From an uncultured Lachnospiraceae bacterium (GTDB lineage Bacteria; Bacillota; Clostridia; Lachnospirales; Lachnospiraceae), in contig CAMBAN010000020.1 in NCBI GenBank assembly GCA_945864145.1, positions 1 to 34,893 of the forward strand: a stretch of DNA of 34,893 nt, read 5' to 3'. A model generated the notes under the pieces. The model was not told the DNA's origin, made no database searches, and worked only from the letters and a program-made list of their open reading frames with translations. Below, in pieces: positions 8,589 through 29,520 of the stretch (positions are counted from its first letter, which is position 1; the number at the start of each line of letters is the position of its first letter). Position numbers and translations under genes: made by a program.

Positions 8589-8608
8589 GAGAAAGGTATG
8601 GTCAGAAA

Positions 8609-9511: not shown

Positions 9512-9526
9512 GTAAAGGACAAAATT

Positions 9527-10087
9527 ATGAAATATCAAGGTATTGAAAAAAGAGAGCAGGGACATTTTATTACAAGATATGATGTAACTTATGAAACAGA
9601 GGAAGGACAGGAGAAAATCTACGAAATTATCAGTAGAAATAAAGAGCTTTCTACTTTTGACGCATTACATAGCAGCAAACCTGACGCAGTTGTCATTATT
9701 GCAACAGATGAAACAGGGGAGAAAATATTGGTAAACAGAGAATTTCGTATGGCAGTAGGAGAATGGGTATATAATTTTCCGGCAGGCTTAATTGATCCGG
9801 GAGAGGAACCACAGGAAAGTGCGAAAAGAGAGCTGTGGGAGGAAACCGGTTTAGAGCTCTATGAGATTGAGGACTTGATACCTATCAGCTATAGCGCAGT
9901 AGGATTTAGTAATGAAACCAATGTGTGCATTGTAGGGAAAGCAAGAGGAAGCTTTCGTAAGAGCACATCAGACCTGGAAGAGATAGAAGCAGCCTGGTAT
10001 ACCAAAGAGGAAATGAGAGAGTTATTAAAAACGCAGCGTTTTGCAGCAAGAACCCAGGCATATTGCTACGTATGGAGTAAAAATTAA
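9527..10087 (+). CDS. NUDIX hydrolase (ADP-ribose pyrophosphatase-like)
   Basis: Nudix box GLIDPGEEPQESAKRELWEETGLE. Confidence 0.92.
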   Translation: MKYQGIEKREQGHFITRYDVTYETEEGQEKIYEIISRNKELSTFDALHSSKPDAVVIIATDETGEKILVNREFRMAVGEWVYNFPAGLIDPGEEPQESAKRELWEETGLELYEIEDLIPISYSAVGFSNETNVCIVGKARGSFRKSTSDLEEIEAAWYTKEEMRELLKTQRFAARTQAYCYVWSKN

Positions 10088-10189
10088 AATAAAATAATCT
10101 GTTTATTACTTGTACCAACTACAAAATATGTTACAATTAATATACGACACTAAAAATAACAGAAAGTAGTATTTTGTAGAAGGTATGGG

Positions 10190-11260: not shown

Positions 11261-11353
11261 AAATAATATAATATTTGTATTATTAAATGAAAATAACAAA
11301 TGATTAAATGAATTATGTAAACAATTTATGAAAAGTAATGGTAGGAATTGAGT

Positions 11354-13390
11354 ATGCACAGTAAGAGTACGATATTGATTGTTGATGATGACGAAATGGC
11401 AAAGGCATCATTGCGAGAAGAATTAGAAAAAGATTATATCGTGTTGGATGCGTATAATGGTATACAGGCGTTGAAGATTTTAAACGACCATGAGGTAGCA
11501 GCGATTGTTCTTGACCTTATTATGCCTGAAATGGATGGCATCGGATTTTTAGAGGAATTCAGCAAAAAGCAGGAATATAAAAAGATTCCTGTTATTGTTG
11601 CGACTTCTAATGATGATGAGGTAATGGAACAAAAATGTCTGGAACTTGGAGTATGGGATTTTGTTATGAAACCATACAAGCCTGTACTGTTGGAATTCAG
11701 AATAAAGAATGTCATAGATAAGAGCAGAATGATTATGGCAGAAAGGGATTCTGTCACAAAGCTTTATACGAAAATGAAGTTTTATCAGTCCACAAGACAG
11801 ATGCTGTTAGAACAGCAGGGTGAGTCTTTTGCTTTTTTGAGAATTGACATTGACCGTTTCAAAATGATTAATAACTTTTATGGTGTACAGGAAGGAGACA
11901 AGGTCTTAATTGCCATTGCAAAGGAGCTGCGAAGAATTTCAGGTACGTTTGAACACTTCCGTTACGGACGTCTGGATAATGATGTTTTTGCCTGCTGTGT
12001 ACCATATAAGGAAGAAAACATTGAATTACTTGTAAAAGCGCTACAGATTAAGCTAAAGCAGCTGAACAAGGACTATAATATAAAGATTTCCTGTGGTGTC
12101 TATGTGATTGATGATTATAACATGGATATTTCAGAAATGTATGACCGTGCTTTTATGGCAGCCAAAAACTGTAAGGGACAGTTTATTGAAAATATAGCTT
12201 ATTATGACGACAGTATGATTGAAAATATGCGTCAGGAACAGTTTATCATTAATGATGTAAATAAGGCATTGGAAGAAGAACAGTTCGTTGTATTTTTACA
12301 GCCAAAAATCAATTTGCAGACAGACAAGCCTTATGGAGCAGAAGCATTGGTACGATGGAAACATCCTGAAAAGGGTATGATTGCACCGTCAGATTTTATA
12401 CCTGTTTATGAAAGAAACGGTATTATCGGAAAACTTGATCAATATATGTGGAGACAGGTTTGTAAGCTACTACGCCGTTGGATTGATGAAGGGTTAGAAC
12501 CGGATCCGATTTCCGTTAATGTATCAAGAGTCAATCTATATAATCCACATTTGGTTGAAATCTTGAAAAATTTAATCACAGAATATCAAATCTCGGCTTC
12601 ATTATTAAATTTAGAGTTGACAGAGAGTGCCTTTATGGAAGACCAGGATTTAATCATGAGTACGATGAGCAAGCTGCATAAGCTTGGCTTTAAAATCATG
12701 ATGGATGACTTTGGAAGTGGTTTTTCTTCCTTAAACATATTGAAGGATATGGAACTTGACTATTTAAAAATTGATATGAAATTTTTAGATTCCCAGGGCT
12801 TTAACGGACGTGGAGAGAAGGTATTGACTTCGGTAATACGGATGGCAAAATGGCTTCAGCTGCCGGCTATTGTAGAAGGTGTAGAAACGCTGGAACAGGT
12901 GGATTTCCTAAAATGTATTGGCTGCGAATATGCACAGGGCTTTTATTTTGCAAAGCCAATGCCTGTGTTTGAGTATGAAAAATACATACGTAGGTCAAGA
13001 AAGCAGATAGCCAAAGAAGTAGACAGCGTACATGCAGATTTGGTTAATGAGCTTTGGGACTCCGGCTCTAATGTCAGCATTTTATTTGACAGTATCGCTC
13101 TACCAATGGCTGCTTTTGAGTATCGCAAGGGAAATGTCGAACTTTTGCGCAGTAATGCGACCTTTGATATTACCTTTAGAGGGGAGCAGATGCTTTCCGG
13201 CAAAGAAAAGGAAGCAAAGACGGAAAAAGAGCGCAAAATACTTGCTTATGCCTTTAAACAGGTACTTAGCGATCAAACGATGGAACTGGTAGTCATGGAA
13301 AAGTGTGAAAAGCGATATAAGCTTATGATAAATGTTTTAGGCAATCGAAAAGATACGCATATTTTTATTGTTACTTACATAGAAAAATAG
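11354..13390 (+). CDS. REC-GGDEF(degenerate)-EAL response regulator, probable c-di-GMP phosphodiesterase, with extra C-terminal domain
   Basis: REC ILIVDDDE...VLDLIMPEMDG; YGRLDNDVFACC at the GGDEF site; EALVRWKHPEKG, NLELTES, DDFGSGFSSLN, LKIDMKFL, VEGVE (EAL). ATG at 11354; track start 11348 is a TTG. Confidence 0.9.
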   Translation: MHSKSTILIVDDDEMAKASLREELEKDYIVLDAYNGIQALKILNDHEVAAIVLDLIMPEMDGIGFLEEFSKKQEYKKIPVIVATSNDDEVMEQKCLELGVWDFVMKPYKPVLLEFRIKNVIDKSRMIMAERDSVTKLYTKMKFYQSTRQMLLEQQGESFAFLRIDIDRFKMINNFYGVQEGDKVLIAIAKELRRISGTFEHFRYGRLDNDVFACCVPYKEENIELLVKALQIKLKQLNKDYNIKISCGVYVIDDYNMDISEMYDRAFMAAKNCKGQFIENIAYYDDSMIENMRQEQFIINDVNKALEEEQFVVFLQPKINLQTDKPYGAEALVRWKHPEKGMIAPSDFIPVYERNGIIGKLDQYMWRQVCKLLRRWIDEGLEPDPISVNVSRVNLYNPHLVEILKNLITEYQISASLLNLELTESAFMEDQDLIMSTMSKLHKLGFKIMMDDFGSGFSSLNILKDMELDYLKIDMKFLDSQGFNGRGEKVLTSVIRMAKWLQLPAIVEGVETLEQVDFLKCIGCEYAQGFYFAKPMPVFEYEKYIRRSRKQIAKEVDSVHADLVNELWDSGSNVSILFDSIALPMAAFEYRKGNVELLRSNATFDITFRGEQMLSGKEKEAKTEKERKILAYAFKQVLSDQTMELVVMEKCEKRYKLMINVLGNRKDTHIFIVTYIEK

Positions 13391-13396
13391 TATGAG

Positions 13397-13431
13397 GAGC
13401 TGTGAAAAGATTATTTTTTCATGGCTCTTTT
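13397..13431 (+). terminator. Rho-independent terminator
   Basis: GAGCTGTGAAAAGATTATTTTTTCATGGCTCTTTTT. Confidence 0.75.
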
Positions 13432-13481
13432 TGGCAAAAAAGATAGACCAACAGCATAATATGAAAAAAACAGGATAGAAA

Positions 13482-14939
13482 ATGAACGATTATGCAAAAA
13501 GCATTTCCGGGATTACAAAAGTAACAGCGCAGGCTCCCTTTCTTACGGGGAAAGGAGTTCTTACGGCTATATTGGACAGTGGAATAGATTACAGAAATAG
13601 AGAATTCATAGATAAAAATGGAAATACAAGGATTGTCGGTATTTGGGATTTGGCGGGAAATAGTGAAAAAACAGCACCACCAGAGGGATATGTACAGGGA
13701 AGCTTTTATGCGAAAGAGCAAATACAGCAGGCAATAGAAGAAAACAGCTATGAACTGGTTCCGGTGATTGACAGGTCAGGGCATGGAACGGCTGTCACAG
13801 GTGTGCTTGCAGGTACTTACGGAGGTATAGCAACAGAAAGTGACATACTGGTCATAAAATTGAATAGCATTACCAATGAGCTTTTAACAACAAGTCTGAT
13901 GCGAGGTGTGGATTTTGCGGTAAAATATGCAACTGCGCAAAATCAGCCCATAGTATTAAATATCAGCATTGGAAATAATTATGGTGATCATCAGGGAAAC
14001 TCTCTGTTAGAACGGTTTATGGATAATGCAGCAGAAGTAGGAAAAACAGCAATTGTGGTGGGTAGTGGTAATGAAGGAGCAGCAGGTGGTCATATGGCAG
14101 GTGTCCTGAATCAGGAAACAAATGTCATGCTGTCTGTGTCAGAGTATGAAACCGCACTCATGATTCAGTTATGGAAATTTGTCAAAGATAGCTTTCGGAT
14201 AAAAATCATTTCGCCCGGAGGAGAAACAGCAACGGTAGAAAACATATCTATAACAGAGCCGAAAAGCATAGAGCTAAAGTTAGGAAACACAACTGTTTTT
14301 TGCTATTTGGGAGTGCCACTTCCGTATCAGCAGCAACAGGAATTTCTGCTTCAATTTCTGGTGCAAAATGGAGGCTACATAGAAAGTGGGGTGTGGATGC
14401 TTGTATTAGAGCCTGTATCGATTGTACAAGGACAGTATCGTTTTTATCTGTCAGGAAGTGCAGTAAGAAACAGCAGAACAGGCTTTTTGCGACCAACACC
14501 GGATATGACGTTAACCATCCCTTCTACAGCACAAAAGGTTATTTCAGTAGGTGCTTATGACGTAGCTTATCAGAGTTATGCTGATTTTTCGGGGAGAGGC
14601 TATGTGTATCGATATGAGGATCAAAGTTCGGTTGGAGCACCAGACTTGATTGCAACAGTGAAACCAGATTTATCAGCTCCAGGTGTAAATATTATGGTAC
14701 CTATTGTAAATGGGGGCTATGAGGAAGTATCAGGGACTTCCTTTGCAGCTCCTTTTGTAGCAGGAATGGCAGCACTGTTAATGGAATGGGGTATCGTACG
14801 CAAAAATGACCCTTATTTGTATGGAGAAAAACTCAAAGCATTTTTGACTAAAAATGCAAGAAGACTGTCAGCGTATACGGAATATCCAAATCCGCAAGTT
14901 GGCTGGGGTGCACTTGATTTACAGACAGGATTGGATTAA
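13482..14939 (+). CDS. S8 family subtilisin-like serine peptidase
   Basis: Catalytic triad motifs AILDSGIDY (Asp), SGHGTAVTG (His), SGTSFAAPFVAGMAALL (Ser); no evident signal peptide. Confidence 0.92.
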   Translation: MNDYAKSISGITKVTAQAPFLTGKGVLTAILDSGIDYRNREFIDKNGNTRIVGIWDLAGNSEKTAPPEGYVQGSFYAKEQIQQAIEENSYELVPVIDRSGHGTAVTGVLAGTYGGIATESDILVIKLNSITNELLTTSLMRGVDFAVKYATAQNQPIVLNISIGNNYGDHQGNSLLERFMDNAAEVGKTAIVVGSGNEGAAGGHMAGVLNQETNVMLSVSEYETALMIQLWKFVKDSFRIKIISPGGETATVENISITEPKSIELKLGNTTVFCYLGVPLPYQQQQEFLLQFLVQNGGYIESGVWMLVLEPVSIVQGQYRFYLSGSAVRNSRTGFLRPTPDMTLTIPSTAQKVISVGAYDVAYQSYADFSGRGYVYRYEDQSSVGAPDLIATVKPDLSAPGVNIMVPIVNGGYEEVSGTSFAAPFVAGMAALLMEWGIVRKNDPYLYGEKLKAFLTKNARRLSAYTEYPNPQVGWGALDLQTGLD

Positions 14940-15013
14940 AATAGAAAAATGTATAAATATAGAAAATAATTTGCTACAATGAAAGCAAAGTATATACGAT
15001 GAGGAGAAAAGAC

Positions 15014-15958
15014 ATGAAAAAGGTATTTATAGATGGTAGTGAGGGTACCACCGGACTGCGTATTTTTGAAAGATTTGAAGGACGTGATGATATTGAAATT
15101 ATGAAAATCCCTTCAGAACTCAGAAAAGACCCAGCCGAGGTGAAAAAATATATCAATGCATCAGATATTACATTTTTATGCTTACCGGATGCTGCTGCAA
15201 AAGAAGCAGTTGCCATGGTAGAAAATGAAAACACAATTATCATTGATACCTCTACAGCCCATAGAACAGAAGAAGGCTGGGCATACGGATATCCGGAGCT
15301 TTCAAAGGAGCATAGAGAAAAAATCAGAAATGGCAAGCGTATTGCAGTGCCGGGCTGCTATGCAACGGGATTTATCACACTTGCGTATCCTTTAGTGGCA
15401 GGCGGTATTTTACCAAAGGATTATCCTGTTTCTGTTTTTGCAGTATCAGGCTACAGCGGAGGCGGAAAAAAGCTGATTGCAGAGTATGAAAATCCGGAAC
15501 GTGATAAAAAGTATGGTTCTGCAAGAATGTACGCATGGGGACAGACTCATAAGCATTTAAAGGAAATGCAGAAAATTACAGGCTTAGACAGAATGCCTCT
15601 GTTTTCACCAATGACAACAGATTATTACAGTGGCATGGTGGTAGAGTTACCCCTTTATACAGAATTGTTAAAAGAAAAGAAAACACCGGAAGAAATCAGA
15701 AATTACCTTGCTGATTATTATGCCGGTGAGAAATTTATCAAGGTTATGCCATTTGGAGCAGATGTAGAAGCAGGAGGAGTTCTTTTCTCTGATGCATGCT
15801 CCGGTTGGGACGGTATAGAGATTTATGTAACAGGTAATGAGGACAGAGTCATTGTGGCTTCTCGTTTTGATAATTTGGGAAAAGGCGCATCCGGCGCCGC
15901 AGTTCAGTGCTTAAATATTGTACTTGGCTGTGAAGAAGAGAAAGGCTTGGTTTTGTAA
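15014..15958 (+). CDS. argC: N-acetyl-gamma-glutamyl-phosphate reductase
   Basis: MKKVFIDGSEGTTGLRIFERF, FLCLPDAAAKEAV, VPGCYATGFITLAYPLV, SGYSGGGKKLI. RBS GAGGAG at 15001, ATG at 15014. Confidence 0.9.
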   Translation: MKKVFIDGSEGTTGLRIFERFEGRDDIEIMKIPSELRKDPAEVKKYINASDITFLCLPDAAAKEAVAMVENENTIIIDTSTAHRTEEGWAYGYPELSKEHREKIRNGKRIAVPGCYATGFITLAYPLVAGGILPKDYPVSVFAVSGYSGGGKKLIAEYENPERDKKYGSARMYAWGQTHKHLKEMQKITGLDRMPLFSPMTTDYYSGMVVELPLYTELLKEKKTPEEIRNYLADYYAGEKFIKVMPFGADVEAGGVLFSDACSGWDGIEIYVTGNEDRVIVASRFDNLGKGASGAAVQCLNIVLGCEEEKGLVL

Positions 15959-17403
15959 TGAGACTTCCGGAGAAGTTTGAAAGAAGAATGCAGGATATGC
16001 TTGGGGAAGCGTATCCTGCTTTCTTACGAAGTTATGATATGGAAAAATATCAGTCCCTGCGTATCAATCCATTAAAAGGGGATAAGGAAAAGTTTCTGAC
16101 ACTTGCGTCGTTTTCAATGGAACAAGTTCCATGGGAAAAGAATGGTTTGTATTATAGTATAACAGACCAGCCGGGCAAACATCCCTGGCATGAAGCAGGC
16201 GTGTATTATATTCAGGAGCCAAGTGCTATGGCACCTGCAGCATATCTGGAAGCAAAACCGGGAGAACGTATTTTAGATTTATGTGCAGCTCCCGGAGGAA
16301 AGTCAACGCAGGTAGCTTCTTATTTGCAGGGAGAAGGACTGCTTGTCTGTAATGAAATTCATCCACAGAGAGCAAAAATTCTGGCGGAAAATATAGAACG
16401 TATGGGTATCAGCAATGCTCTTGTAACAAATGAGACACCACAAAAGCTGGCAGAGGTATTTGACTGTTTTTTTGACAGAGTATTAGTAGATGCACCTTGT
16501 TCGGGAGAAGGCATGTTTCGTAAGAATGAGGATGCGCAGACAGAATGGAGTCCTGAAAATGTACAACTTTGTGCAGACAGACAGGATGAGATTTTAGACT
16601 GCGCAGACAGTATGTTAAAGCCAAATGGCAGACTGGTGTATTCGACTTGTACCTTTGCACCGGCTGAAAATGAAGGCAGTATTTCCCGCTTTTTACAAAG
16701 ACATCCGGAGTATGAAATCGTAGAAGTACCTTTTTCAGGCGGCATGGAGCCCGGTGTACCTGCATGGGGAGACGGTAACCCGATGCTTGCACGTACGATT
16801 CGTTTATGGCCACATAAATGTAAGGGAGAGGGACACTTTTTAGCAGTATTGCAAAAGAAGGGAGAAGCCGGAGCAAGTTATGAAGGCTTTTCTAAATATG
16901 GCTATGAATATGGAGTGCTTCCTGAAAAAGAAGGAAGCAGCAAGGGGAAAAAGGGAAAAGAAAAGAATAAAAACAATAAGACAGATATTATTAAGAGCGT
17001 ATTGGAGTTTCAAAAGGAAAATCTTAAGATTGACTTATTTTCCATGAAAAACCAGGGACTTCTTGCTTTCGGAGAACAGGTTTACCTGTTGCCAGAGGGA
17101 ATGCCGGCCTTACATGGCTTAAAGGTACTAAGACCGGGACTTCATCTTGGCACAATAAAAAAGGAACGTTTTGAGCCATCTCATGCATTGGCACTTTTCT
17201 TAAAACCGGAGCAGGCAGTACATGTGATGGAACTTTCTTCGAAGGAGCCGCAGGCAGCAGCTTTTATACAGGGACAAACCTTAAATTATGACGGAGAAAA
17301 GGGCTGGTATCTGATAACGGTAGACGGTTATAGCCTTGGCTGGGGAAAGCTTGCCGGACAGATTATGAAAAATCATTATCCCAAGGGACTTAGAAAAGGA
17401 TAA
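15958..17403 (+). CDS. RsmF-like rRNA cytosine-C5 methyltransferase (NOL1/NOP2/Sun family)
   Basis: ERILDLCAAPGGKSTQVA, VDAPCSGEGMFRK, YSTCTFAPAENE; start overlaps the argC stop (TAATG). Confidence 0.92.
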   Translation: MRLPEKFERRMQDMLGEAYPAFLRSYDMEKYQSLRINPLKGDKEKFLTLASFSMEQVPWEKNGLYYSITDQPGKHPWHEAGVYYIQEPSAMAPAAYLEAKPGERILDLCAAPGGKSTQVASYLQGEGLLVCNEIHPQRAKILAENIERMGISNALVTNETPQKLAEVFDCFFDRVLVDAPCSGEGMFRKNEDAQTEWSPENVQLCADRQDEILDCADSMLKPNGRLVYSTCTFAPAENEGSISRFLQRHPEYEIVEVPFSGGMEPGVPAWGDGNPMLARTIRLWPHKCKGEGHFLAVLQKKGEAGASYEGFSKYGYEYGVLPEKEGSSKGKKGKEKNKNNKTDIIKSVLEFQKENLKIDLFSMKNQGLLAFGEQVYLLPEGMPALHGLKVLRPGLHLGTIKKERFEPSHALALFLKPEQAVHVMELSSKEPQAAAFIQGQTLNYDGEKGWYLITVDGYSLGWGKLAGQIMKNHYPKGLRKG

Positions 17404-17408
17404 CAGAA

Positions 17409-18755
17409 ATGAAACCAAAGAACAGAACATTAACAGAAGGAAATCCAACAAAGCTGATTTTACTTTTTGCCATTCCCATTTTTATTGGCAATCTGTTTCA
17501 GATATTTTATAGCTTGATTGATACGAAAATTGTAGGAAGCATTTTAGGAGAAACAGCACTGGCAGCAGTAGGCTCTGTTTCTACCCTAAATAACCTGCTG
17601 ACCGGTTTCTTTAACGGACTGACATTAGGATTTAGTGTGATATTGGCAAGATTTTACGGAAGCGGAAACGAGAAAGAGTTTAAAAAGTATGTGGCAGGAG
17701 CCATTGAACTTGGATTTTTGACTGCTATTGTGGTAATCAGTGTGGTATTACTTGGATTGGAGCCTGTTTTACGTTTTATGAATGTACCGGATGATCAGTT
17801 TATGCTGGCAAAGGACTACGTATTTATCCTCGTAGCAGGTATGTTCATTACACTGTCTTACAACCTTTGTGCAAATACCTTACGTGCTATTGGAGATTCT
17901 GTAACGCCGCTTATTTTCCTGGTCATTGCTTCTGTCACCAATATTATTCTGGATTATACTTTTATTTTAAATTGGGGGCTGGGCGTAAAAGGCGCTGCTA
18001 TTGCGACAGTATTGTCACAATTTCTGTCAGTAGTGCTTTGCATGATTAGAATTATAAAGGCATTCCCTGTGCTGCATGTAAAAAGAGCAGATTTTAAGCT
18101 GACGAAGGAAAGAGTAGGAAAACTATACGAAAGTGGTCTGTCCATGGGACTTATGTCCAGTCTTGTCAATGTAGGTACCTTGATTTTGCAGACAGGCATC
18201 AATCAGCTGGGAACGAATACGATTGTTGCACATACGGCGGCAAGAAAGGTATTTGAAATCTGGGCACTGCCGGGTAGTGTATTAGGTGCTTCCATGGCAA
18301 CCTATTGCGGTCAGAATTATGGTGCACACCGTTATGACAGAATCAGACAGGGTCTAAAGAGTGTTTTAACCATAGGAGCTTGTTGGGCAATAGCAGTTTT
18401 TTTTATGGCACATACAATTTCTCCTTATTTGATTTCGTTTATTGCCAGTACAAAAAACGAGGAAATCATTTACTGGGGTTCTACTTATTTAAAAACAGAT
18501 ATGTCATTTATGATTGTCTGTGTTTTGATTGTGGTATTACGAAATTCCATGCAGGGATTTGGAGATGCCAAAACACCAATTGTATCCAGTACGATTGAGC
18601 TTTGCGGAAAAATTATTTTTGCAGGCTTCTTTGTAAAAATATTCGGATATTGGGCAATCATATGGACAGAACCAATTATATGGATTTGCATGGTCATTCC
18701 ATTGATTGTTATGACCTTGAAAAATCCGGTTATACGAGAAAAAGGAAAGGAATAG
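17409..18755 (+). CDS. MATE family efflux transporter
   Basis: Multi-TM; LTEGNPTKLILLFAIPIFIGNLFQIFYSLIDTKIVGSILGETALAAVGS. Confidence 0.92.
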   Translation: MKPKNRTLTEGNPTKLILLFAIPIFIGNLFQIFYSLIDTKIVGSILGETALAAVGSVSTLNNLLTGFFNGLTLGFSVILARFYGSGNEKEFKKYVAGAIELGFLTAIVVISVVLLGLEPVLRFMNVPDDQFMLAKDYVFILVAGMFITLSYNLCANTLRAIGDSVTPLIFLVIASVTNIILDYTFILNWGLGVKGAAIATVLSQFLSVVLCMIRIIKAFPVLHVKRADFKLTKERVGKLYESGLSMGLMSSLVNVGTLILQTGINQLGTNTIVAHTAARKVFEIWALPGSVLGASMATYCGQNYGAHRYDRIRQGLKSVLTIGACWAIAVFFMAHTISPYLISFIASTKNEEIIYWGSTYLKTDMSFMIVCVLIVVLRNSMQGFGDAKTPIVSSTIELCGKIIFAGFFVKIFGYWAIIWTEPIIWICMVIPLIVMTLKNPVIREKGKE

Positions 18756-18766
18756 CGATTATTCAT

Positions 18767-20122
18767 ATGGCGAAAAAATATGAGATGGATATGTGCAGTG
18801 GCTCTTTGTTTAAAAAGATGTTAGTATTTGCACTGCCATTGATGTTTTCCAGCATTTTACAGCTTTTATTTAATGCAGCAGATGTTGTAGTAGTGGGACG
18901 ATTTGCAGGTGATAATGCGTTAGCGGCAGTTGGTTCTACCGGTTCTTTGATAAACCTGCTGACGAATCTCTTTGTAGGTCTTTCCGTTGGTACGAATGTA
19001 CTTGTGGCACAGTTTTACGGTGCAAAAAGGGAAAAGGATTTACAGGAAACCATACATACCTCTATGCTGCTTGGTTTGTATAGTGGTATTTTACTTACGA
19101 TTTTAGGAATTGTGGCAACCAAACAGATATTGATACTTATGCAGTCACCGAAGGAAGTATTGGATTTATCGGCACTGTATTTAAAGATATATTTTCTTGG
19201 CATGACTGCTACTATGATTTATAACTTTGGCAGTGCAATATTGAGAGCAGTAGGAGATACGAGAAGACCTCTTTACTATTTGTTTTTTGCAGGTATCATC
19301 AATGTCATTTTGAATTTGATATTTGTAATAGGCTTTCGCATGGGCGTTGCAGGTGTTGCAGCAGCAACAGCGATTTCACAGACAATTTCTGCGGCGCTTG
19401 TAGTCAGATGCCTGATGAAGGAGCAGGGAAGTATCCATTTGTCCTTAAAGGCCTTAAAGCTGCATGAGGACAAGGTGAAAAAAATCATTCGTGTCGGTTT
19501 GCCTGCAGGCTTTCAGGGGATGGTATTTTCTTTATCCAATGTAGTCATTCAATCAGCCATCAATAGCTTTGGTGCTGTGATTGTAGCTGGAAATTCCGCA
19601 GCGGCAAATATCGAAGGCTTTGTGTATGTAGCGATGAATGCTTTTTATCAGACGACGGTGTCCTTTACCAGTCAGAACTATGGAGCGAAAAAGTTTAAAC
19701 GTATCAAACAGATTTTATATATTGGTGAGTTGTATGTTATTTTAACAGGTGTTATTTTGGGAAATGCAGTTGTCATTTTTGGAACACAGCTGTTAGGTAT
19801 TTATTCAGAAAGTACAGAGGTCATCGTGGCAGGACTTGCAAGACTTCATGTAATATGTGCGACTTATGAACTTTGCGGCATGATGGATGTATTAGTAGGG
19901 TCACTTCGAGGGATTGGCTATTCCATTTTACCGATGATAGTATCCTTAATCGGAGCCTGTGGACTACGACTTGTCTGGATTTATACTGTGTTTCAAATAC
20001 CGCAGTACCATGTCATCCACACTGTCTATTTGTCCTATCCGATTACCTGGACCATTACAATGACTGTTCACCTGATTTGTTTTATCTGGGCTTATAGAAA
20101 AATAGTGAGAAAGGAAGCATAA
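18767..20122 (+). CDS. MATE family efflux transporter (second, tandem)
   Basis: LPLMFSSILQLLFNAADVVVVGRFAGDNALAAVGSTGSLINLL. Track ORF starts at 18602 inside the upstream gene; the N-terminal homology starts near the ATG at 18767. Confidence 0.9.
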   Translation: MAKKYEMDMCSGSLFKKMLVFALPLMFSSILQLLFNAADVVVVGRFAGDNALAAVGSTGSLINLLTNLFVGLSVGTNVLVAQFYGAKREKDLQETIHTSMLLGLYSGILLTILGIVATKQILILMQSPKEVLDLSALYLKIYFLGMTATMIYNFGSAILRAVGDTRRPLYYLFFAGIINVILNLIFVIGFRMGVAGVAAATAISQTISAALVVRCLMKEQGSIHLSLKALKLHEDKVKKIIRVGLPAGFQGMVFSLSNVVIQSAINSFGAVIVAGNSAAANIEGFVYVAMNAFYQTTVSFTSQNYGAKKFKRIKQILYIGELYVILTGVILGNAVVIFGTQLLGIYSESTEVIVAGLARLHVICATYELCGMMDVLVGSLRGIGYSILPMIVSLIGACGLRLVWIYTVFQIPQYHVIHTVYLSYPITWTITMTVHLICFIWAYRKIVRKEA

Positions 20123-20126
20123 AAGT

Positions 20127-21296
20127 ATGACAGAAATAGGATCAACCAGAATGAAACATTTTTCAACCGGTATTTTTACAGAGTTGAATGAGAAAAAAGA
20201 GGAAATGGAAAAGAAAGGGAAAAAGCTGTACAACCTTTTTGTAGGAACGCCTGATTTTCCACCTGCACCACACATTATGGAAGCTGTGCAAAAAAGTGCA
20301 GCAAGTCCGGAAGCATATAAATATTCCTTAAAGGATTTACCGGAGCTTTTAGATGCAGTTGTGGATTACTATAAGGAACGCTTTGATGTAACGGTTACAC
20401 CGGACATGATTACCGGTGTACATGGATCACAGGAGGGAATCGGACATTTATGTATGGCACTTTGTGACCCGGGAGACTTGGTATTATTACCAAATCCCGG
20501 TTATCCGATTTTTGAAGCCGGCGCCTATCTTGCACAGACAGAGCAGTATTTTTATCCGCTGTTAGAAGAAAATCACTTTTTGCCGGTGCTTTCAGACATT
20601 CCGGAGGATGTGGCAAAGCGTGCAAAACTGATGATTGTATCCTATCCTTATAATCCGGTTTGCAAGGTGGCTCCGGACAGCTTTTATGATGAATTAATTG
20701 CGTTTGCTAAAAAATATGACATCTTTGTCATTCATGATAATGCTTATTCAGATATTATTTATGATGGCAGAGTTGGCGGTTCTTTTTTGAAGCACAAGGG
20801 TGCGCTGGAAATTGGTGCAGAGTTTTTCTCTTTATCTAAATCCTTTAATGTGACAGGTGCTCGTGTGTCCTTTATGATAGGTAGAAAGGATGCTATTGAT
20901 GCAATGAAGTTGTTGCGTTCCCAAATAGACTTCGGCACTTTTATTCCGGTGCAGAGAGGGGCAATTGCAGCATTAAGGGGACCGAAGGACTATGTAAAAG
21001 AGCAGTGCCAAAAATATCAGGAAAGACGAGATGCTTTGTGCGGTGGCTTTCGCAGCATCGGTTGGGATGTGCCTGACAGTGAAGGAACGATGTTCGTATG
21101 GGCACCGATTCCTGAAAAATATAAAACTTCAAGAGAGTTTGTCATGGACATGGTAGAAAAGGCCGGTGTACTTTGTACACCCGGTGATGCGTTTGGTTCT
21201 CTGGGTGAAGGCTATGTAAGATTTGCACTGGTGCTTCCACCCGAAGAACTAAAAGAGGCAGTAAAAGCCGTCAAAGAAAGTGGAATATTGAACTAA
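20127..21296 (+). CDS. PLP-dependent class I/II aminotransferase
   Basis: PNPGYPIFEAGAYLAQ, IVSYPYNPVCKVA, HDNAYSDIIYDG, SLSKSFNVTGARVSFMIG (PLP-Lys region). Confidence 0.9.
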   Translation: MTEIGSTRMKHFSTGIFTELNEKKEEMEKKGKKLYNLFVGTPDFPPAPHIMEAVQKSAASPEAYKYSLKDLPELLDAVVDYYKERFDVTVTPDMITGVHGSQEGIGHLCMALCDPGDLVLLPNPGYPIFEAGAYLAQTEQYFYPLLEENHFLPVLSDIPEDVAKRAKLMIVSYPYNPVCKVAPDSFYDELIAFAKKYDIFVIHDNAYSDIIYDGRVGGSFLKHKGALEIGAEFFSLSKSFNVTGARVSFMIGRKDAIDAMKLLRSQIDFGTFIPVQRGAIAALRGPKDYVKEQCQKYQERRDALCGGFRSIGWDVPDSEGTMFVWAPIPEKYKTSREFVMDMVEKAGVLCTPGDAFGSLGEGYVRFALVLPPEELKEAVKAVKESGILN

Positions 21297-21315
21297 AATG
21301 GACAAAATTGCAAAG

Positions 21316-21352
21316 AAAACGGTACAAAATGAATAATTTTGTACCGTTTTTA
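21316..21352 (+). terminator. Rho-independent terminator
   Basis: AAAACGGTACAAAA-TGAATAA-TTTTGTACCGTTTTT perfect stem. Confidence 0.88.
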
Positions 21353-21547
21353 TTTTACTCCAGTTGTGAAAATGTACAAAAACACAATGATATAATAGAA
21401 TTGCATGGTCATATTTGCATAGTATACATAAAATGTTGACGAGAAACTTCGTGAAAGTGCACATATAATACAAGTATGTGTAAATGGAGAATTTTCCAAT
21501 CTGAATAGAAGTAAGGGTTATAAAAAAAGAATGGGAGGATGCGCAGT

Positions 21548-24500
21548 ATGAGAAAGAGGAAGGAATGGATGAAATTCCTGTCAGTTGCATTAAGCGTTGC
21601 CATGCTGGGTACGTCAGTACAAGTACCGGGGATGGAAGTGCAGGCGCAAGAAAATGTGAGTGAGTCCACTGCAGAAGCTGAGGAGGAGAGCGAAGCAGAG
21701 GAAAGCGCACAGCAGGAAACAGAAGAAAAATCAACTTCCGAAGAGGAGACTTCGACTGCTGAGGAAGAAAGCACGGAGTCTGAAGAAACTTCTGAAACTG
21801 AGAGTTCTGTAGAAGAAACAGAGGAGACAGAAGAAGAGGAGACAACAGAAGAGGAAACGACAGAGGAAGAAACGGAAACAGAAACGGAGACAGAAACAGA
21901 AATGGAACTGATGCTGTTAAAGGATGAAGAGGTTCCTTTAGCTTACGGAGTTACTGTAGCTCAGGGCGATGATGGTTATTCTTCTTTCACGGAAGATCAG
22001 GTTGTTGCCGATTTTGTATTTGGGGATAATGTTTCAGCAGACACTGTTTATGACAGTAGTGTCGGTTATGGATTTGCAGACAATACCTACCCAACAGAAG
22101 CAAAGGGTTGGGAAAGCAATGTCTACTACCCAAGAGAGGAGTCTTTGGACACAGGAAAGGCATCTTATGTGAAAGATGATAAGGACTGTGTTGGCATTGA
22201 CAGTAAGGCTTGGACAGAAACAGAAAGTACAGGCTACGGTGTATATACTTATGAAAATACATCTGCATTTTTAGTTGATTTATATAATGCAGATTATCAG
22301 GTAGAGGTTACTTTAACAAATCCTACAGATTCTACCTATACAGCCTATGTAAAGGCAGAAAATATTTCTAAGCTGACAGGTGTTGAGGTTGGCGCAGGGG
22401 CAAGTAAGACAGTCACCTTTACCGCTTGTGTCGTAGATGGACAGCTTAACTTAAAGACAATTGGTACAAGCAGTGCGACAACAATGGATGGCGCAGATAC
22501 ACAGACCGTTTATGTATCACGCATTAAGCTGACAAGACTTGCAACCAATCAGACAGAGTCAAAACCAACTATCTTTATTGCTTCAGACTCTACTGTTCAG
22601 ACCTATGACAGCTATTACTATCCACAGACCGGATGGGGACAGACTTTGGCAATGTTCTTTGGTACCTCTGTAGATGAGTATGAGTGTGAGGATTGCAATT
22701 TCAGTCAGGCACAGAGCTATGAAACAGAAAATGTAATCGTAGAGAACAGAGCTATTGGTGGAAGAAGCTCAAAATCGTATGTAGAAGAAGGAAAGCTGGA
22801 TGATTTATTAGAGGACATTAAACCGGGCGATTACTTATTTGTACAGTGGGGACACAACGATGCAACCTATTCCAGACCAAATCGTTATGTTTCCAGCAAT
22901 GATTTTGAAAAATGGATGATGTACTATGTAAATGGTGCAAGACAACGTGGTGCAACACCGGTACTTGTTACACCGGTAGCAAGATACAGCTATACTACAA
23001 ATGCAGACGGAAGCTTAAACTCTTTTGCAAGTAACTTTGAGGCCTACAGACAGGTAATGTTAAAGATTGCAAAGAATGAAAACGTTCCGTATGTAGATTT
23101 AACACAGCGTTCGATTGATGTTTGTAATGATTTTGGTATTGAAGGAGCAAAATCGTTATTTTTACATGTGGCAGCAGGTGATTATCCAGGCGGCGCTTAT
23201 GCGGGCGGTGCAACAGACTCTACCCATCTACAATACTATGGTGCATACAAGTTTGCACAGTGTGTAGCAGATGGTGTTTTAGAATATGAAGATACTGACC
23301 AGTTAGATACGTTAAAACAGTATGTAGTAAGCAAAAAGTCAGACTCTGTACCTCAAAAGATAACAGGATTAAAGGTTACCTCAACAGGTGCTACCTCTGT
23401 CAGCTTCTCCTGGGATGCAGAGGATACGGCAGAGCTTTATTACATTTACCGTTCAGAAAGTGACAGCTTCGACAGTGCAGAAAAATATTCTGTTACTTCA
23501 TCAACTAAGTATACAGATAACTCCTGTGCAGCAGGAAAAACTTATTATTATGCAGTAGCAGGATTTAATGACAAAGGTGTCGGCGAACTGTCTGACAGTG
23601 TAGAGACAACGACAAAGACTGCCGGCTATCGCTTTGACTTTAACTACAACAATTCTACAACCATGGATGGCTGGACAGGTGTTAATCAGGACCAGATGTA
23701 TGATGCGACAGTAGGCTATGGTTGGATTACTGCTCCCGGAAACGGTAGATATCGTTCTGGAAATGGTAATGACGATTCATCCGCAATGGCAGATGACTTC
23801 TGTCTTGGAGCTGGAGAATTTGCAGTAGATTTACCAAACGGTGACTATGAAGTAACGATTTATGCAGCAGATTTATTACCAGGAACAAGTACCATTAAAC
23901 CGGCTTATACAGCAGAAGGAAAATCTTTGGGTTCTATCGCATGTAAGCAGGCATTAGGCTCTTGCACGAATACAGTAAGAGTAACGGATGGACAGTTAAA
24001 CATTGAAGTTGGCGGAACAAATATGTATATCAATGGTATGACCATTACCGCATTATTAGAGTCTCCGTCAGGTCTTGTAGCAACAGAAGGCTCAGCAAAA
24101 GAAAATAAGTACAGCTTCTTATTATCCTTCAATCCGGTAAGTGATGCTGCAGGCTATTCTATCTATCAGAAGGGTTCAACCGATAAGGAATTTTCATCTG
24201 TAAAGACCTTTACTGTAGAAGAATACAAGGATGATGAGCTAAGCTGTAAGGCTTTATCTGTAGACCTTGGTGATGAATATCAGTATTACATGACTTGCTA
24301 TACAGCAGATGGAACAGAGTCAGCACCAAGTGAAACGATTACCGTAAAAGCATTTGTAGATACTGCAGTACCTAGTGCACCAAAGAATGTAGTTTGTGTC
24401 AGCCCTACCAAGGATGAAACCAAGCTTCAGGATAAAATTGAATTATCATGGGATGCATCTACTGTAGAAGAAAGCAAATATCCTGTTATCAAATACATTA

Positions 24501-27500
24501 TTTATCGTTCAGATAAGGACGAGAATGATAAAGGATTTAAGGAATTTGTTAAAGTGGGTGAGTCAACCAAGACAAGCTACACTGATACAACTGTAAAGAC
24601 AAATATTTCTTACTATTATAAAGTAAGTGCCATGAACGCAGGTGGCGAGGGCGAACAGTCCGAAACCTGTAAAACACCGGTTGCAGGTACGCTTGCAAAG
24701 GGTGGCAGAGAAAGCTACTCAGACAGAGCTTTGGTAGCCATTTCTTTAGCAGGAGATGCTGGCGCACAGACCTGTATTTCCGCAACAGACAGCGACGGAA
24801 ATGAATTAACAAAGGGTGTTTATTTAAGCTGGAGAAGCTATGAAGCAGACTTTAACAGTGAGAAGGAATGTACAACGACTTTTGATGTATACTGCAATGG
24901 AGAATTGATCGCAAATGACATCAGTGTCACAAATATGGTTTATGAGGGCGGTACTGCATCAGATACTTTCAAGGTAGTTGGAAGCAATGACAGTAAGCTT
25001 GGTTTAAAGGAATCTTCAGCAAAATGCTGGGCAAATCAGTATTTAGAGCTTTCCCTTTATTGTCCGGAAAATGAAACCATGCCGGATGGCAGTACTTGTG
25101 ATTATACAGCAAATGATATGTCACTTGGTGATTTAGACGGAGACGGTGAGTTAGAGCTCATTGTAAAATGGTATCCTTCTAACGCACAGGATAACTCAAA
25201 AGGCGGTTATACAGGAAAGACCTTCTTAGATGGTTATGATGTGGATTTTTCAACAGGAGAAGTAAAACTGTTGTGGAGAATTGACCTTGGTGTCAATATC
25301 CGTTCCGGTGCTCACTATACACAGTTCCAGGTATGGGATTTCGACTGCGATGGAAAAGCAGAAATCGCAGTAAAGACAGCAGACGGTACAACTGTTTATA
25401 CAAGTACAGATGGAACAGCAGCAGGCTTGGAAGAGCTGGATTATGTGGGGGCATGCAGTGCAGCTGATTTACCTGTGGATACAGTTTCAGAAAAGAATGA
25501 TTATCGTAACTCATCAGGTTATGTATTAGATGGACCGGAATACTTCACCATCTTTAACGGAGAAGATGGCTCTATCATAGATACGACAGATTATATTCCG
25601 GAAAGAGGAAGCGTCAGCGCATGGGGCGATGCTTACGGAAACCGTGTAGACAGATTTTTATCAGCAACAGCATACTTAGATGGAGAAACACCATTTGCAG
25701 TATTCTGTAGAGGTTACTATACAAGAACATGCTTAACAGCATACTATTTGAAAGATACAGATGGTGATGGCATTGGCGATACCATTGATACCTATTGGAC
25801 ATTTGATACCAATGAAGCAGGCAGTGAATATGAAGCACAAGGAAATCACGGCTTAAGTGTGAATGATGTAGACAATGATGGCATGGATGAAATTATTTAT
25901 GGTTCTCTTTGTATTGACCATGATGGAACTGTAAAATACTCAACAGGTCTTGGACATGGAGATGCCATGCATGTATCAGACTGGGTATCATGGAATGACG
26001 GCTTGGAAATCATGGCTGTACATGAGCATGATAATGCTACTTATCATGTAGAAATCCATGACGCAGAAACAGGAGAAATGTTGATGGGTTACAATACAGG
26101 TAAAGACACCGGACGTGGTGTGGCATCTGATATTGACCCTACATCAGAAGGTGCAGAATGGTGGTCTATTGCAAGTCCTACTTACGAAAGCAATGATGAG
26201 CCTGAATGGGATTCCACAGACGGTGAGGTATACTCTACCTGGTCAAACTTAAACAAGTTGGTAAAACTTTCCAATGTGACACCGGCGTCAAATGCGACCT
26301 TATTCTGGGATGGTGATTTATTAAGTGAAATTCAGGATCACACCTTCAATAAAACAGCATATGCACCAACAGGTGTATCCATTGCAAAATGGAATTATGA
26401 GGATGAAACACAGGAAAAACTTCTTTATTCTACCGAAATTTACTCAAGCAATGGTACAAAAGGTAACCTGGGAATCATTGCAGATTTCCTGGGAGACTGG
26501 AGAGAAGAATTCATCGCAAGATGTGCAAACGATAACAACAAGGTACGTATTTACACAACAACGATTCAGACAGATTATGTAGTGCCATGCTTATTGGAAG
26601 ACTTAGCATACAGAGAGGGTGTAGCATGGGAGAATGTTGGCTACAATCAGCCTGCAAACGTAAGCTGTCTCCTTTCTGAAGGCTTAGTGACCGCAGAGCT
26701 TAGCGAAGGAAAGATTACCCAAACAACAGCAGAGGTTATCTTTACAGCAGCAAATGACGGAACAGGATATGGACATGATATTGAAGGCTATGAAATCTAC
26801 AGAGCAGATGGCGATGGAGAATACAAGCTTATCGATACTGTAAAAACAAGTGAACTAAAGAAAGTATCAGTTGGCTCCGAAGGGGCTTCGGAAGAAGAGG
26901 AAGAGACAAAGGAAGAAGAAAAGCTTGTTTCTTACAAATTTGACTTTGGTGGAAAAGATGGAAAGAACAGCTCCAAAGTAGGTCCTTGTATGGAGGGTTA
27001 TACAGAAATTACTTCTGCAAGTGCTTCTTATGAGGATAGTGAAGAAGGCTATGGCTTAACAGCAGAGTCCTTGAAGGGCATTACTTTCCGTTACTATGCA
27101 GGAGGTACGACAACCTATGGTAACAATTATGATAACTCCTATGCGGCATTATTTGATGACCTTGCCATGGGATGGAATTCAGATGTTGTATTTAAGGCAA
27201 ATGTACCAAATGGGAAATATGATGTGAAGGTATTGACCTCACATGTTTCCGGTACAGCTAAGAATTTAATCTATATCCAGGATATGGACACACAGGTTGC
27301 AAGATATGCAAATAAGAATGAAGTAAATGTAGCAAGTGCTTCTGTAGAAGTAACTGATGGTGTACTAACTGTAAAAGTAACCTTAGATCCAAAGTATGTG
27401 GGTGCAGTATGCTTAAATGGTTTGGAAATTGTGCAGACAGAAAGCTATGCAGAAGAGGAAAAGGAAGAGGAATCTACAGAGAACACAACCGGAACAAAGA

Positions 27501-29479
27501 CAGCTTACAGCTATACAGATACCGGTTTACAACAGGCATCTACATACTCTTATAAGATTGCAGCAGTTGTAGATGGTAAGACTTCTTATATGTCAAGAGC
27601 GTTAGAGCTTGAAACAGCGGTAGCAATTGCATCAGTAGAAGAATTAGAGGAGGTAACACTTGTAGAAGGTACACCGGTAGGTGAGGAGGAAGCAGTAGCA
27701 AGCTTACTTCCTGCAACAGTAAAGGTAACAACACAAGAGGGAGAAACTCTCGATTATGCTGTAACTTGGGATGTTTCAGCGCTCGATATTAATACAGTAG
27801 GTACTTATACCGTAGCTGGTACTATCAAAGGCTATGATGAGAGCATTGTTTTAAAGGTTAAAGTAATTGCAAATGAAGTAAAAGGATACGCAGAACTTCC
27901 TGAACTTACAACAATTGTTGGTGTAGAAATTGCTTTGCCTGCTACTGTAGATGTAGAGTATACAAATACAACCAAGGTTGCCAAGGCAATCACCTGGGAT
28001 ACAACAGATTTAGATTTTAATACAATTGGTGATTATCAGGTAACAGGTCAGGTCGCTGATAGTGAGGATACACTGACACTGACTGTACATGTAGTAGATA
28101 CTTATATTACATCAGTAGCAACAAGCTATGCGGAGATTGCTTTAAATAGTACAGACGTAGCAGCAGCGCTTCCATTAACAGTAGTTGCAACCTATGCTGA
28201 TGGAAAAACAGGAAATGTATTAGTGACCTGGGATGAAACAGCAGTTTCTGACATTGATGTCACAAAAACAGGAACAATAACCATTACCGGAAAAGTGGAA
28301 GGCTTTGAAGAAGCAGTAAGCTTACAGGTATCTGTTGTATATCCTGCAGTATGGAAATTTGATTTTGGTATTAAGACAGCAAGTGAAGCAGAAGGCTGGA
28401 CAGGTGTTACTGTAAATAGTAAAGGTGGCAAGAAGACAGTAGCTGACCTTGGTATTACTTATAGCGAAGAAAAGGGCTATGGCTTCTTAAATGAGGCAGC
28501 AGTTATCGAGGGACGTCAGGAAAGCTATACACAGGCAGGCGTCTTAGCAGAAAATGTTTATACAGATTTTGCAATTCCGGATGGTCAGACCTTTGTGGCT
28601 AATGTACCAAATGGTGTATATCAGGTACAGGTAGTTGGCGGTTCTGCATACAAGAGCACTGTAAAGGCTACTATCGAAGGAACGGCATTAAGCGTTGGTA
28701 ACAGCGCAGGAACATATACCATTGGTAGTGTAGAAGTAACCGTAACAGATGGACAGTTAACCTGTGAATTTACAAGTGGTGCTACTTCAAGACTGGATGC
28801 AATCATTGTAAGACAGATTTCTGTAGAAGAAACACCGGGTGGAGATGAAGGAGACAATAACCCTGATAGTGGAAATTCATCAGATGGAGATTCAACAACA
28901 GACAGCGGCGCTTCATCAGATAATGACTCAACAACAGACAACAGTACAACATCAGATAGCAGCTCATCTGTAAGCAGCAGTGCTTCATCAAGCACTACGA
29001 CAACAATTGCAGACAGTGACGTACCAATGGCTTCCGGTATTACTCAGCATGGTTTACCATATTTGACCTTACAGGGAGATGAGGCACTTCAGTTAAAGAA
29101 TGAACTGTTTACAAAATACCATGGAAAGAATTTATATCTCATGGCACATTTAGGAAACGGCATCGGATTTACCATTTACTCTGAGCAGTCAGCAGACAAA
29201 GAAGTAAAGCTTGCAACAGAAATAAAACAGCTACCAGGCTTTGCAATTGGCTATACTACATTCCAATTACAGCCTGTTCAGACGGCACAACTTTCTTACA
29301 CAATAGGCGTACATGTAAATGTGGGAAGTGAGTATGTTGGAAGAACTGCATATATCTTTAAGAAGAGTCTTTTGACAGGTGAATACGAACCGGTTCTTAC
29401 CATGAAGGTAAATGAAATTGGTAACGTAGCAGTACAGACAACAGATTTAACAGACTTTATGATTTTAGTCGAAGAATAA
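21548..29479 (+). CDS. Giant secreted multimodular protein: predicted rhamnogalacturonan acetylesterase (SGNH/CE12-like) + PL11-type rhamnogalacturonan lyase, with Fn3, Ig-like and galactose-binding-like modules
   Basis: Signal peptide MRKRKEWMKFLSVALSVAMLGTSVQV; acidic T/E-rich linker; esterase KPTIFIASDSTVQ / QWGHNDATY / DSTHLQYYGAYKFAQ; lyase ALVAISLAGDAGAQTCISATDSDGNELTKGVYLSWR, SLGDLDGDGELELIVKWYPSN, DFDCDGKAEIAVKTADGT; RBS GGGAGG at 21532 favours ATG 21548. Confidence 0.9.
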   Translation: MRKRKEWMKFLSVALSVAMLGTSVQVPGMEVQAQENVSESTAEAEEESEAEESAQQETEEKSTSEEETSTAEEESTESEETSETESSVEETEETEEEETTEEETTEEETETETETETEMELMLLKDEEVPLAYGVTVAQGDDGYSSFTEDQVVADFVFGDNVSADTVYDSSVGYGFADNTYPTEAKGWESNVYYPREESLDTGKASYVKDDKDCVGIDSKAWTETESTGYGVYTYENTSAFLVDLYNADYQVEVTLTNPTDSTYTAYVKAENISKLTGVEVGAGASKTVTFTACVVDGQLNLKTIGTSSATTMDGADTQTVYVSRIKLTRLATNQTESKPTIFIASDSTVQTYDSYYYPQTGWGQTLAMFFGTSVDEYECEDCNFSQAQSYETENVIVENRAIGGRSSKSYVEEGKLDDLLEDIKPGDYLFVQWGHNDATYSRPNRYVSSNDFEKWMMYYVNGARQRGATPVLVTPVARYSYTTNADGSLNSFASNFEAYRQVMLKIAKNENVPYVDLTQRSIDVCNDFGIEGAKSLFLHVAAGDYPGGAYAGGATDSTHLQYYGAYKFAQCVADGVLEYEDTDQLDTLKQYVVSKKSDSVPQKITGLKVTSTGATSVSFSWDAEDTAELYYIYRSESDSFDSAEKYSVTSSTKYTDNSCAAGKTYYYAVAGFNDKGVGELSDSVETTTKTAGYRFDFNYNNSTTMDGWTGVNQDQMYDATVGYGWITAPGNGRYRSGNGNDDSSAMADDFCLGAGEFAVDLPNGDYEVTIYAADLLPGTSTIKPAYTAEGKSLGSIACKQALGSCTNTVRVTDGQLNIEVGGTNMYINGMTITALLESPSGLVATEGSAKENKYSFLLSFNPVSDAAGYSIYQKGSTDKEFSSVKTFTVEEYKDDELSCKALSVDLGDEYQYYMTCYTADGTESAPSETITVKAFVDTAVPSAPKNVVCVSPTKDETKLQDKIELSWDASTVEESKYPVIKYIIYRSDKDENDKGFKEFVKVGESTKTSYTDTTVKTNISYYYKVSAMNAGGEGEQSETCKTPVAGTLAKGGRESYSDRALVAISLAGDAGAQTCISATDSDGNELTKGVYLSWRSYEADFNSEKECTTTFDVYCNGELIANDISVTNMVYEGGTASDTFKVVGSNDSKLGLKESSAKCWANQYLELSLYCPENETMPDGSTCDYTANDMSLGDLDGDGELELIVKWYPSNAQDNSKGGYTGKTFLDGYDVDFSTGEVKLLWRIDLGVNIRSGAHYTQFQVWDFDCDGKAEIAVKTADGTTVYTSTDGTAAGLEELDYVGACSAADLPVDTVSEKNDYRNSSGYVLDGPEYFTIFNGEDGSIIDTTDYIPERGSVSAWGDAYGNRVDRFLSATAYLDGETPFAVFCRGYYTRTCLTAYYLKDTDGDGIGDTIDTYWTFDTNEAGSEYEAQGNHGLSVNDVDNDGMDEIIYGSLCIDHDGTVKYSTGLGHGDAMHVSDWVSWNDGLEIMAVHEHDNATYHVEIHDAETGEMLMGYNTGKDTGRGVASDIDPTSEGAEWWSIASPTYESNDEPEWDSTDGEVYSTWSNLNKLVKLSNVTPASNATLFWDGDLLSEIQDHTFNKTAYAPTGVSIAKWNYEDETQEKLLYSTEIYSSNGTKGNLGIIADFLGDWREEFIARCANDNNKVRIYTTTIQTDYVVPCLLEDLAYREGVAWENVGYNQPANVSCLLSEGLVTAELSEGKITQTTAEVIFTAANDGTGYGHDIEGYEIYRADGDGEYKLIDTVKTSELKKVSVGSEGASEEEEETKEEEKLVSYKFDFGGKDGKNSSKVGPCMEGYTEITSASASYEDSEEGYGLTAESLKGITFRYYAGGTTTYGNNYDNSYAALFDDLAMGWNSDVVFKANVPNGKYDVKVLTSHVSGTAKNLIYIQDMDTQVARYANKNEVNVASASVEVTDGVLTVKVTLDPKYVGAVCLNGLEIVQTESYAEEEKEEESTENTTGTKTAYSYTDTGLQQASTYSYKIAAVVDGKTSYMSRALELETAVAIASVEELEEVTLVEGTPVGEEEAVASLLPATVKVTTQEGETLDYAVTWDVSALDINTVGTYTVAGTIKGYDESIVLKVKVIANEVKGYAELPELTTIVGVEIALPATVDVEYTNTTKVAKAITWDTTDLDFNTIGDYQVTGQVADSEDTLTLTVHVVDTYITSVATSYAEIALNSTDVAAALPLTVVATYADGKTGNVLVTWDETAVSDIDVTKTGTITITGKVEGFEEAVSLQVSVVYPAVWKFDFGIKTASEAEGWTGVTVNSKGGKKTVADLGITYSEEKGYGFLNEAAVIEGRQESYTQAGVLAENVYTDFAIPDGQTFVANVPNGVYQVQVVGGSAYKSTVKATIEGTALSVGNSAGTYTIGSVEVTVTDGQLTCEFTSGATSRLDAIIVRQISVEETPGGDEGDNNPDSGNSSDGDSTTDSGASSDNDSTTDNSTTSDSSSSVSSSASSSTTTTIADSDVPMASGITQHGLPYLTLQGDEALQLKNELFTKYHGKNLYLMAHLGNGIGFTIYSEQSADKEVKLATEIKQLPGFAIGYTTFQLQPVQTAQLSYTIGVHVNVGSEYVGRTAYIFKKSLLTGEYEPVLTMKVNEIGNVAVQTTDLTDFMILVEE
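22562..23290 (+). other. Predicted SGNH/rhamnogalacturonan acetylesterase domain (within giant CDS)
   Basis: ASDST block, GGRSSKSY, GHNDA, DSTHLQ. Confidence 0.8.
24683..26685 (+). other. Predicted PL11-type rhamnogalacturonan lyase domain (within giant CDS)
   Basis: GGRESYSDRALVAISL start, four DxDxDG-like Ca sites, NLGIIADFLGDWREEFIARCANDNNKVRIYTTTIQTDYVVPCLLEDLAYREGVAWENVGYNQPANVSCLL at the end. Confidence 0.82.
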
Positions 29480-29484
29480 AAATC

Positions 29485-29520
29485 AGGAGCATCTTGGGTT
29501 GAACCAGGATGCTCCTTTTA
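29485..29520. terminator. Bidirectional rho-independent terminator between convergent genes
   Basis: AGGAGCATCTTGG-GTTGAA-CCAGGATGCTCCTTTT. Confidence 0.75.

Follow-up and report, generated by a model that had tools for sequence, protein, structure and literature searches.

Proteins that carry a CE12 esterase and a PL11 lyase on one chain have been catalogued previously. The arrangements PL11-Doc-CBM35-CE12 and PL11-CE12-CBM13-CBM13-CBM37 were described for ruminococci in 2014 (PMC4081043), and 50 CE12:PL11 proteins were counted in CAZy in 2023, none of which had been characterised to the knowledge of those authors (PMC10483417). These included CE12:CBM35:PL11 proteins such as HUW50_16055, for which no functional data were reported (PMC10483417). 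A phrase search of the literature for the CE12-PL11 combination returned no description beyond these two papers. The fusion itself was therefore ruled out as a novelty, and the giant protein considered here, encoded within a 34,893-nucleotide contig of a Lachnospiraceae genome (the whole stretch analysed, hereafter the window), is an uncharacterised example rather than new in kind.

The gene formed one unbroken frame on the plus strand from an ATG at 21539 to the stop codon at 29479 (2646 aa). The second in-frame ATG at 21548 is the likelier start because it lies 9 nt from a GGGAGG site that the ATG at 21539 directly abuts, and the sequence-only reading of a single polypeptide of about 2643 residues starting at 21548 was thus the better choice of coordinates. 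Residue numbers in this report are counted from 21539; three are subtracted for the likelier start. The gene is probably a single-gene transcription unit, since terminator-like stem-loops lie on both sides and the next gene downstream, an aldo-keto reductase, is on the opposite strand. A pseudogene or chance motifs were ruled out by the intact frame and the invariant catalytic residues described below, and a plasmid origin was rejected as PLSDB gave no match. The source genome is an 83%-complete draft in 205 contigs.

Other features of the window included, right at the beginning of the contig, a group II intron (D1-D4 RNA match at 70-158, reverse transcriptase/maturase frame at 210-1604), which was the only hit of an Rfam scan of the whole window, and P-type metal ATPases at 2073-3956 and 6036-8588, the latter carrying two heavy-metal-associated domains. 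A pair of MATE-family efflux genes in a row was located at 17409-20122; the listed TTG start of the second is probably too early because its longest frame overlaps the first.

The domain order was derived from Pfam, a PDB sequence search and alignments, and some boundaries are approximate (Table 1). It runs from GBD1 through the CE12-type SGNH esterase, Fn3, GBD2, two Fn3-like domains, PL11, an Fn3 split by GBD3, three Big_4 domains and GBD4 to a Ser/Thr/Asp linker and the C-terminal domain. GBD denotes PF21254, a galactose-binding-domain-like family to which domains of beta-agarase and YxiM belong. Several carbohydrate-binding modules had been proposed; what the protein has are four copies of PF21254, for which sugar binding is putative.

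Table 1. Features of the giant gene and its flanks, with positions in the window
Feature	Position	Strand	Basis or remark
Terminator-like stem-loop upstream of gene	21315..21351	+	
GGGAGG ribosome-binding-like site	21533..21538	+	9 nt before ATG 21548; sequence
Whole gene	21548..29479	+	2643 aa from ATG 21548; second in-frame ATG
Signal peptide-like segment (MRKRKEWMKFLSVALSVAMLG...VQA)	21548..21646	+	Putative, from sequence
Glu/Thr/Ser-rich acidic linker	21653..21922	+	42 Glu in 90 residues
GBD1, N-terminal part of YxiM-like esterase unit	21941..22543	+	Pfam, PDB alignment; approximate bounds
CE12-type SGNH acetylesterase domain, aa 340-602	22556..23344	+	Pfam, PDB matches, alignment
Ser351, predicted nucleophile (ASDST block)	22589..22591	+	Alignment
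Asp560 and His563, predicted catalytic Asp/His (DSTH)	23216..23227	+	Invariant in 16 domains
Fibronectin type III domain	23354..23614	+	Pfam, PDB
GBD2 (PF21254)	23621..24088	+	Pfam
Two Fn3-like domains before lyase	24095..24676	+	Second by Pfam, first by eye
PL11 rhamnogalacturonan lyase, aa 1062-1722	24722..26704	+	Pfam, PDB, alignment, Foldseek
Lyase insert SIASPTYESNDEPEWDSTD at position of YesX loop PPGNDGMSY	26165..26221	+	Alignment
Split Fn3, first half	26720..26878	+	Versus uninterrupted Fn3 of L009, L013, L015, L021
GBD3, inserted in C'-E loop of split Fn3	26930..27436	+	Pfam, alignment, model
Split Fn3, second half	27470..27574	+	Comparison with relatives
Three Big_4 Ig-like domains	27575..28294	+	Pfam
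GBD4 (PF21254)	28301..28813	+	Pfam
Ser/Thr/Asp/Gly-rich linker	28814..29005	+	Composition
Unnamed C-terminal beta domain	29006..29476	+	Common to six other large ORFs of same genome
Terminator-like stem-loop (strong) directly 3' of gene	29485..29516	+	13 pairs

The esterase half matched Lipase_GDSL in Pfam (E=2.9e-8, score over the curated cut-off) and YxiM in the PDB sequence search (E=1.9e-19). YxiM (2O14), the closest solved esterase, aligned across GBD1 and the SGNH domain while the Aspergillus RG acetylesterase (RGAE, 1DEO/1K7C) aligned at the oxyanion-hole blocks, and on these matches the domain is assigned to the CE12 type. The SGNH catalytic set was complete (S351, G408, N440, D560 and H563) and did not vary among the 16 CE12 domains compared from fused relatives. 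G408 and N440 aligned with Gly42 and Asn74 of RGAE and are presumably the oxyanion-hole residues. The esterase blocks named in the sequence-only reading were all located, with IASDSTVQ at residue 347, GHND at 438-441 and DSTHLQ at 560.

The lyase half matched RGL11_C over model positions 1-487 of 490 (E=3.6e-174) and RGI_lyase with 29.1 bits (cut-off 27.8), both in Pfam. Its best PDB sequence match was YesX (E=2.8e-148), and RGL11 and YesW were also matched. All seven Ca- or substrate-binding residues listed for PL11 enzymes (PMC8787155) were present (H1437, H1473, D1475, E1496, R1526, K1641 and Y1702) and invariant in 18 aligned PL11 sequences. The lyase signs noted previously were likewise recovered: ALVAISL and YLSWR stand at the lyase start, and the DxDxDG motif occurs four times, always within the lyase (1198, 1267, 1406 and 1443), whereas 2000 shuffles of the lyase sequence gave 0.07 on average and never more than 2. 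An AlphaFold2 model of residues 1045-2005, covering the lyase and split Fn3 and built from 19 sequences, was of moderate confidence (pLDDT 72, pTM 0.64). The PL11 portion is modelled as an eight-bladed beta-propeller, and its top four Foldseek matches in the PDB were 2zuy, 2zux, 2z8r and 4cag, which represent YesX, YesW (two entries) and the B. licheniformis lyase (E<1e-49, TM 0.84-0.85 by target length). The proposal of one polypeptide combining a CE12-like esterase with a PL11 lyase was therefore upheld, as domain search and alignments placed the esterase half as CE12-like and the lyase half in PL11, with catalytic residues intact.

A scan of genomes for the CE12-PL11 core returned 18 loci, at least 14 of which had CE12 and PL11 in one frame, including those of Butyrivibrio, Robinsoniella, Anaerobium, Falcatimonas and Konateibacter. 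Konateibacter massiliensis (L021) carried two complete CE12-PL11 giants in tandem at 8228-16363 and 16562-23788. Eight of 299 sampled Lachnospiraceae genomes had the CE12-to-PL11 form, seven in one frame (the source genome included) and one split by a contig break. Among 399 genomes across the phylum, CE12 followed by PL11 was found in two members of one family (f33; G320 and G403) and the order PL11, GBD, CE12 in three genomes (G653, G541 and G691). A further Lachnospiraceae genome, G033, encoded a 1047-aa PL11-CE12 protein with no obvious signal peptide between PcRGLX (PL26-like) and GH105-like genes; this reverse-order fusion (L046, 4646-7786 of G033:C43) is a candidate intracellular version.

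The PL11 tree kept the two groups of reverse order apart with starred support, and neither fell inside the forward group. Because CE12-PL11 and PL11-CE12 do not simply interconvert, the fusions arose at least three times (one forward and two reverse), and the forward fusions may themselves have two origins. Esterase-less relatives of Roseburia MAGs (L017-L019) nested within the fused clade and so, most simply, lost the CE12 half. Both the loss and the recurrent gain would fit a coupling that is useful yet optional.

The Fn3 domain behind the lyase was uninterrupted, with about 75 residues, in four relatives (L009, L013, L015 and L021). The giant protein and L005, L007, L019 and L020 had one GBD-like domain between the strands ...YKLIDTV and YSYTDTGL..., L006 and L010 had two, L012 had a different domain that was LamG-like by eye, and L014 had both kinds. 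The tandem copies of L006 and L010 were near-identical, suggesting a recent duplication. Since the inserts differ between relatives, this Fn3 loop has been used repeatedly. In the AlphaFold2 model most of GBD3 had intermediate to good confidence, with malectin and CBM6/CBM61-like fold matches in Foldseek, while the split Fn3 had confidence gaps.

Both the giant protein and L014 end in an unnamed beta domain of 156 residues. Its model had a pLDDT of 87.8, yet the domain is left without a named fold because no PDB match fell below an E of 0.005 and the best matches had low TM-scores. Six further large frames of the source genome (G000 contigs C13, C19, C34, C60, C102 and C112) close with this domain: a GH43/GH10 protein of 2598 aa, a GH53, a CE8-like pectinesterase, a GH16, a pullulanase-like GH13 protein and one without an assignment. 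In other family members, what came after distant relatives of the domain was, as judged by eye, an LPXTG-like tail, LysM-like repeats or a membrane segment. Relatives of the giant protein ended in choline-binding repeats (Butyrivibrio), sortase-type tails (L012, L013 and G284) or Ig-like domains (Roseburia), and their sequences indicate that C-terminal modules are swapped between species. Pfam matched no sortase, LysM or choline-binding anchor in the giant protein and no LPXTG-like end was seen by eye; the genome has two sortases. The simplest reading of these sequences is that the C-terminal domain is wall-proximal. A wider proposal, which we advance tentatively and regard as rather unlikely, is that the C'-E loop of the Fn3 serves as an exchange slot in which substrate-binding modules are swapped while the enzyme keeps its place along the chain, that the C terminus swaps wall anchors independently, and that the C-terminal domain would be a new wall attachment for the whole set of giant glycan-degrading enzymes of this lineage.

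Genes for GH27-like, SGNH and GH3 proteins are located downstream of the giant gene, and no signal peptides were seen by eye on their products. They had been read as a partner set that processes the released oligosaccharides, but they lie outside the transcription unit, and a common operon or PUL was ruled out by the strong 3' stem-loop and the intervening aldo-keto reductase gene; these genes may process galactosides. Likelier RG-I partners were on other contigs. Three GH88/GH105 genes were present, one adjoining a GH112-family phosphorylase and an ABC transporter and another adjoining GH28 and a pectin-esterase-like gene. A second PL11, apparently intracellular, adjoined a PcRGLX (PL26-like) gene, a small CE12-like gene adjoined a transporter, and CE8 was also encoded. 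GH112 includes galactosyl-rhamnose phosphorylases. Together this set of genes supports the use of RG-I by the organism.

The giant protein is very probably an extracellular, likely cell-wall-associated, two-enzyme RG-I pectinase with esterase and lyase on one chain; secretion, substrate, synergy and surface attachment are what we infer from its domains and relatives. The CE12-type domain would remove RG-I acetyl groups by a Ser-Asp-His SGNH mechanism and the PL11 beta-propeller would cut the Rha-GalA backbone by Ca-dependent beta-elimination, with the galactose-binding-like, Fn3 and Ig-like domains spacing the two enzymes and probably holding substrate and the C-terminal domain probably at the cell surface. 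After import of the unsaturated oligosaccharides, GH105, GH112 and intracellular lyases from other parts of the genome would complete their degradation. An order of action, deacetylation and then cleavage, had been part of the sequence-only reading but is not carried by the sequence evidence. RG-I would be the substrate of the esterase half because that half is fused to an RG-I lyase; several acetylated pectins and xylan are among the polymers that CE12 enzymes attack, and the family spans pectin, RG and xylan (PMC10483417). It is rather unlikely that the esterase half instead targets another acetylated polymer (acetyl-xylan or homogalacturonan), the two activities then serving the same plant cell wall with no direct RG-I synergy. 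This alternative draws on the breadth of CE12, on the deposition of YxiM as a hypothetical protein and on an NCBIfam match to the pectin acetylesterase PaeY that scored far under its cut-off, whereas the independent fusions in both orders, one of them adjoining PL26-like and GH105 genes, favour a common RG-I substrate. It is highly improbable that one of the halves has lost its activity and persists as a relic for binding, since neither half shows any change at a catalytic residue across the fused clade, even though the CE12 half is dispensable in the Roseburia-type MAGs from which it is absent.

Compatible with the two-enzyme RG-I explanation, and not exclusive of it, is an exo-acting or size-restricted lyase. 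YesX is an exo-lyase (PMC7596534) and the title of 2zuy also says exotype. At one alignment position YesX has PPGNDGMSY, the endo-acting YesW has nothing and the giant protein has the long insert listed in Table 1. Ochiai and colleagues in 2009 reportedly held the YesX loop, closing the cleft, to be the cause of exo action. An insert enlarged at this position makes exo action plausible: its 17-19 residues would fill the cleft like the YesX loop, and the lyase would trim chain ends while the esterase clears acetyls ahead. We put the chances of this as about even. The insert lies exactly where exotype YesX diverges from YesW, most fused Lachnospiraceae relatives conserve it and YesX is the best PDB match, but the loop is short in L013 and L020, two fused relatives that branch early, the sequence of the YesX loop itself is not shared and the model of the insert region has low to moderate confidence.

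Acetylation hinders rhamnogalacturonan-degrading enzymes and it is there that the fusion is relevant, its recurrence in both orders being evolutionary evidence for coupled deacetylation and cleavage. The family offers a test case in which full-length proteins can be compared with separated halves, with the natural esterase-less relatives as controls, and the swapped Fn3 inserts and C-terminal modules give a view of how giant cell-surface pectinases are assembled in gut and rumen Lachnospiraceae. What is added to the known fusions is a conserved loop, a putative exchange slot, wall modules that are interchangeable at the C terminus and the repeated origin of the fusion in both orders.

Compared to solved enzymes, the esterase half shares its GBD plus SGNH layout with YxiM and its aligned catalytic Ser, Gly and Asn, with Asp/His in a DxxH block, with Aspergillus RGAE, but has ASDST in place of AGDST as the nucleophile block and is part of a fusion. 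The lyase half shares its fold and all seven Ca/substrate residues with YesX (2ZUY) and YesW (2Z8R) of Bacillus subtilis at 40-42% identity to the model, whereas those enzymes are single-domain and the YesX loop is shorter. The ruminococcal proteins likewise have both activities on one chain, but in the reverse order and with dockerin or CBM37 attachment rather than Ig repeats and the C-terminal domain (PMC4081043). Metabacillus HUW50_16055 has the same enzyme order with a binding-like domain between and an intact triad and Ca sites (PMC10483417), while the giant protein exceeds it by about 1200 aa and has four GBDs, the split Fn3, Big_4 repeats, the C-terminal domain and the long lyase loop.
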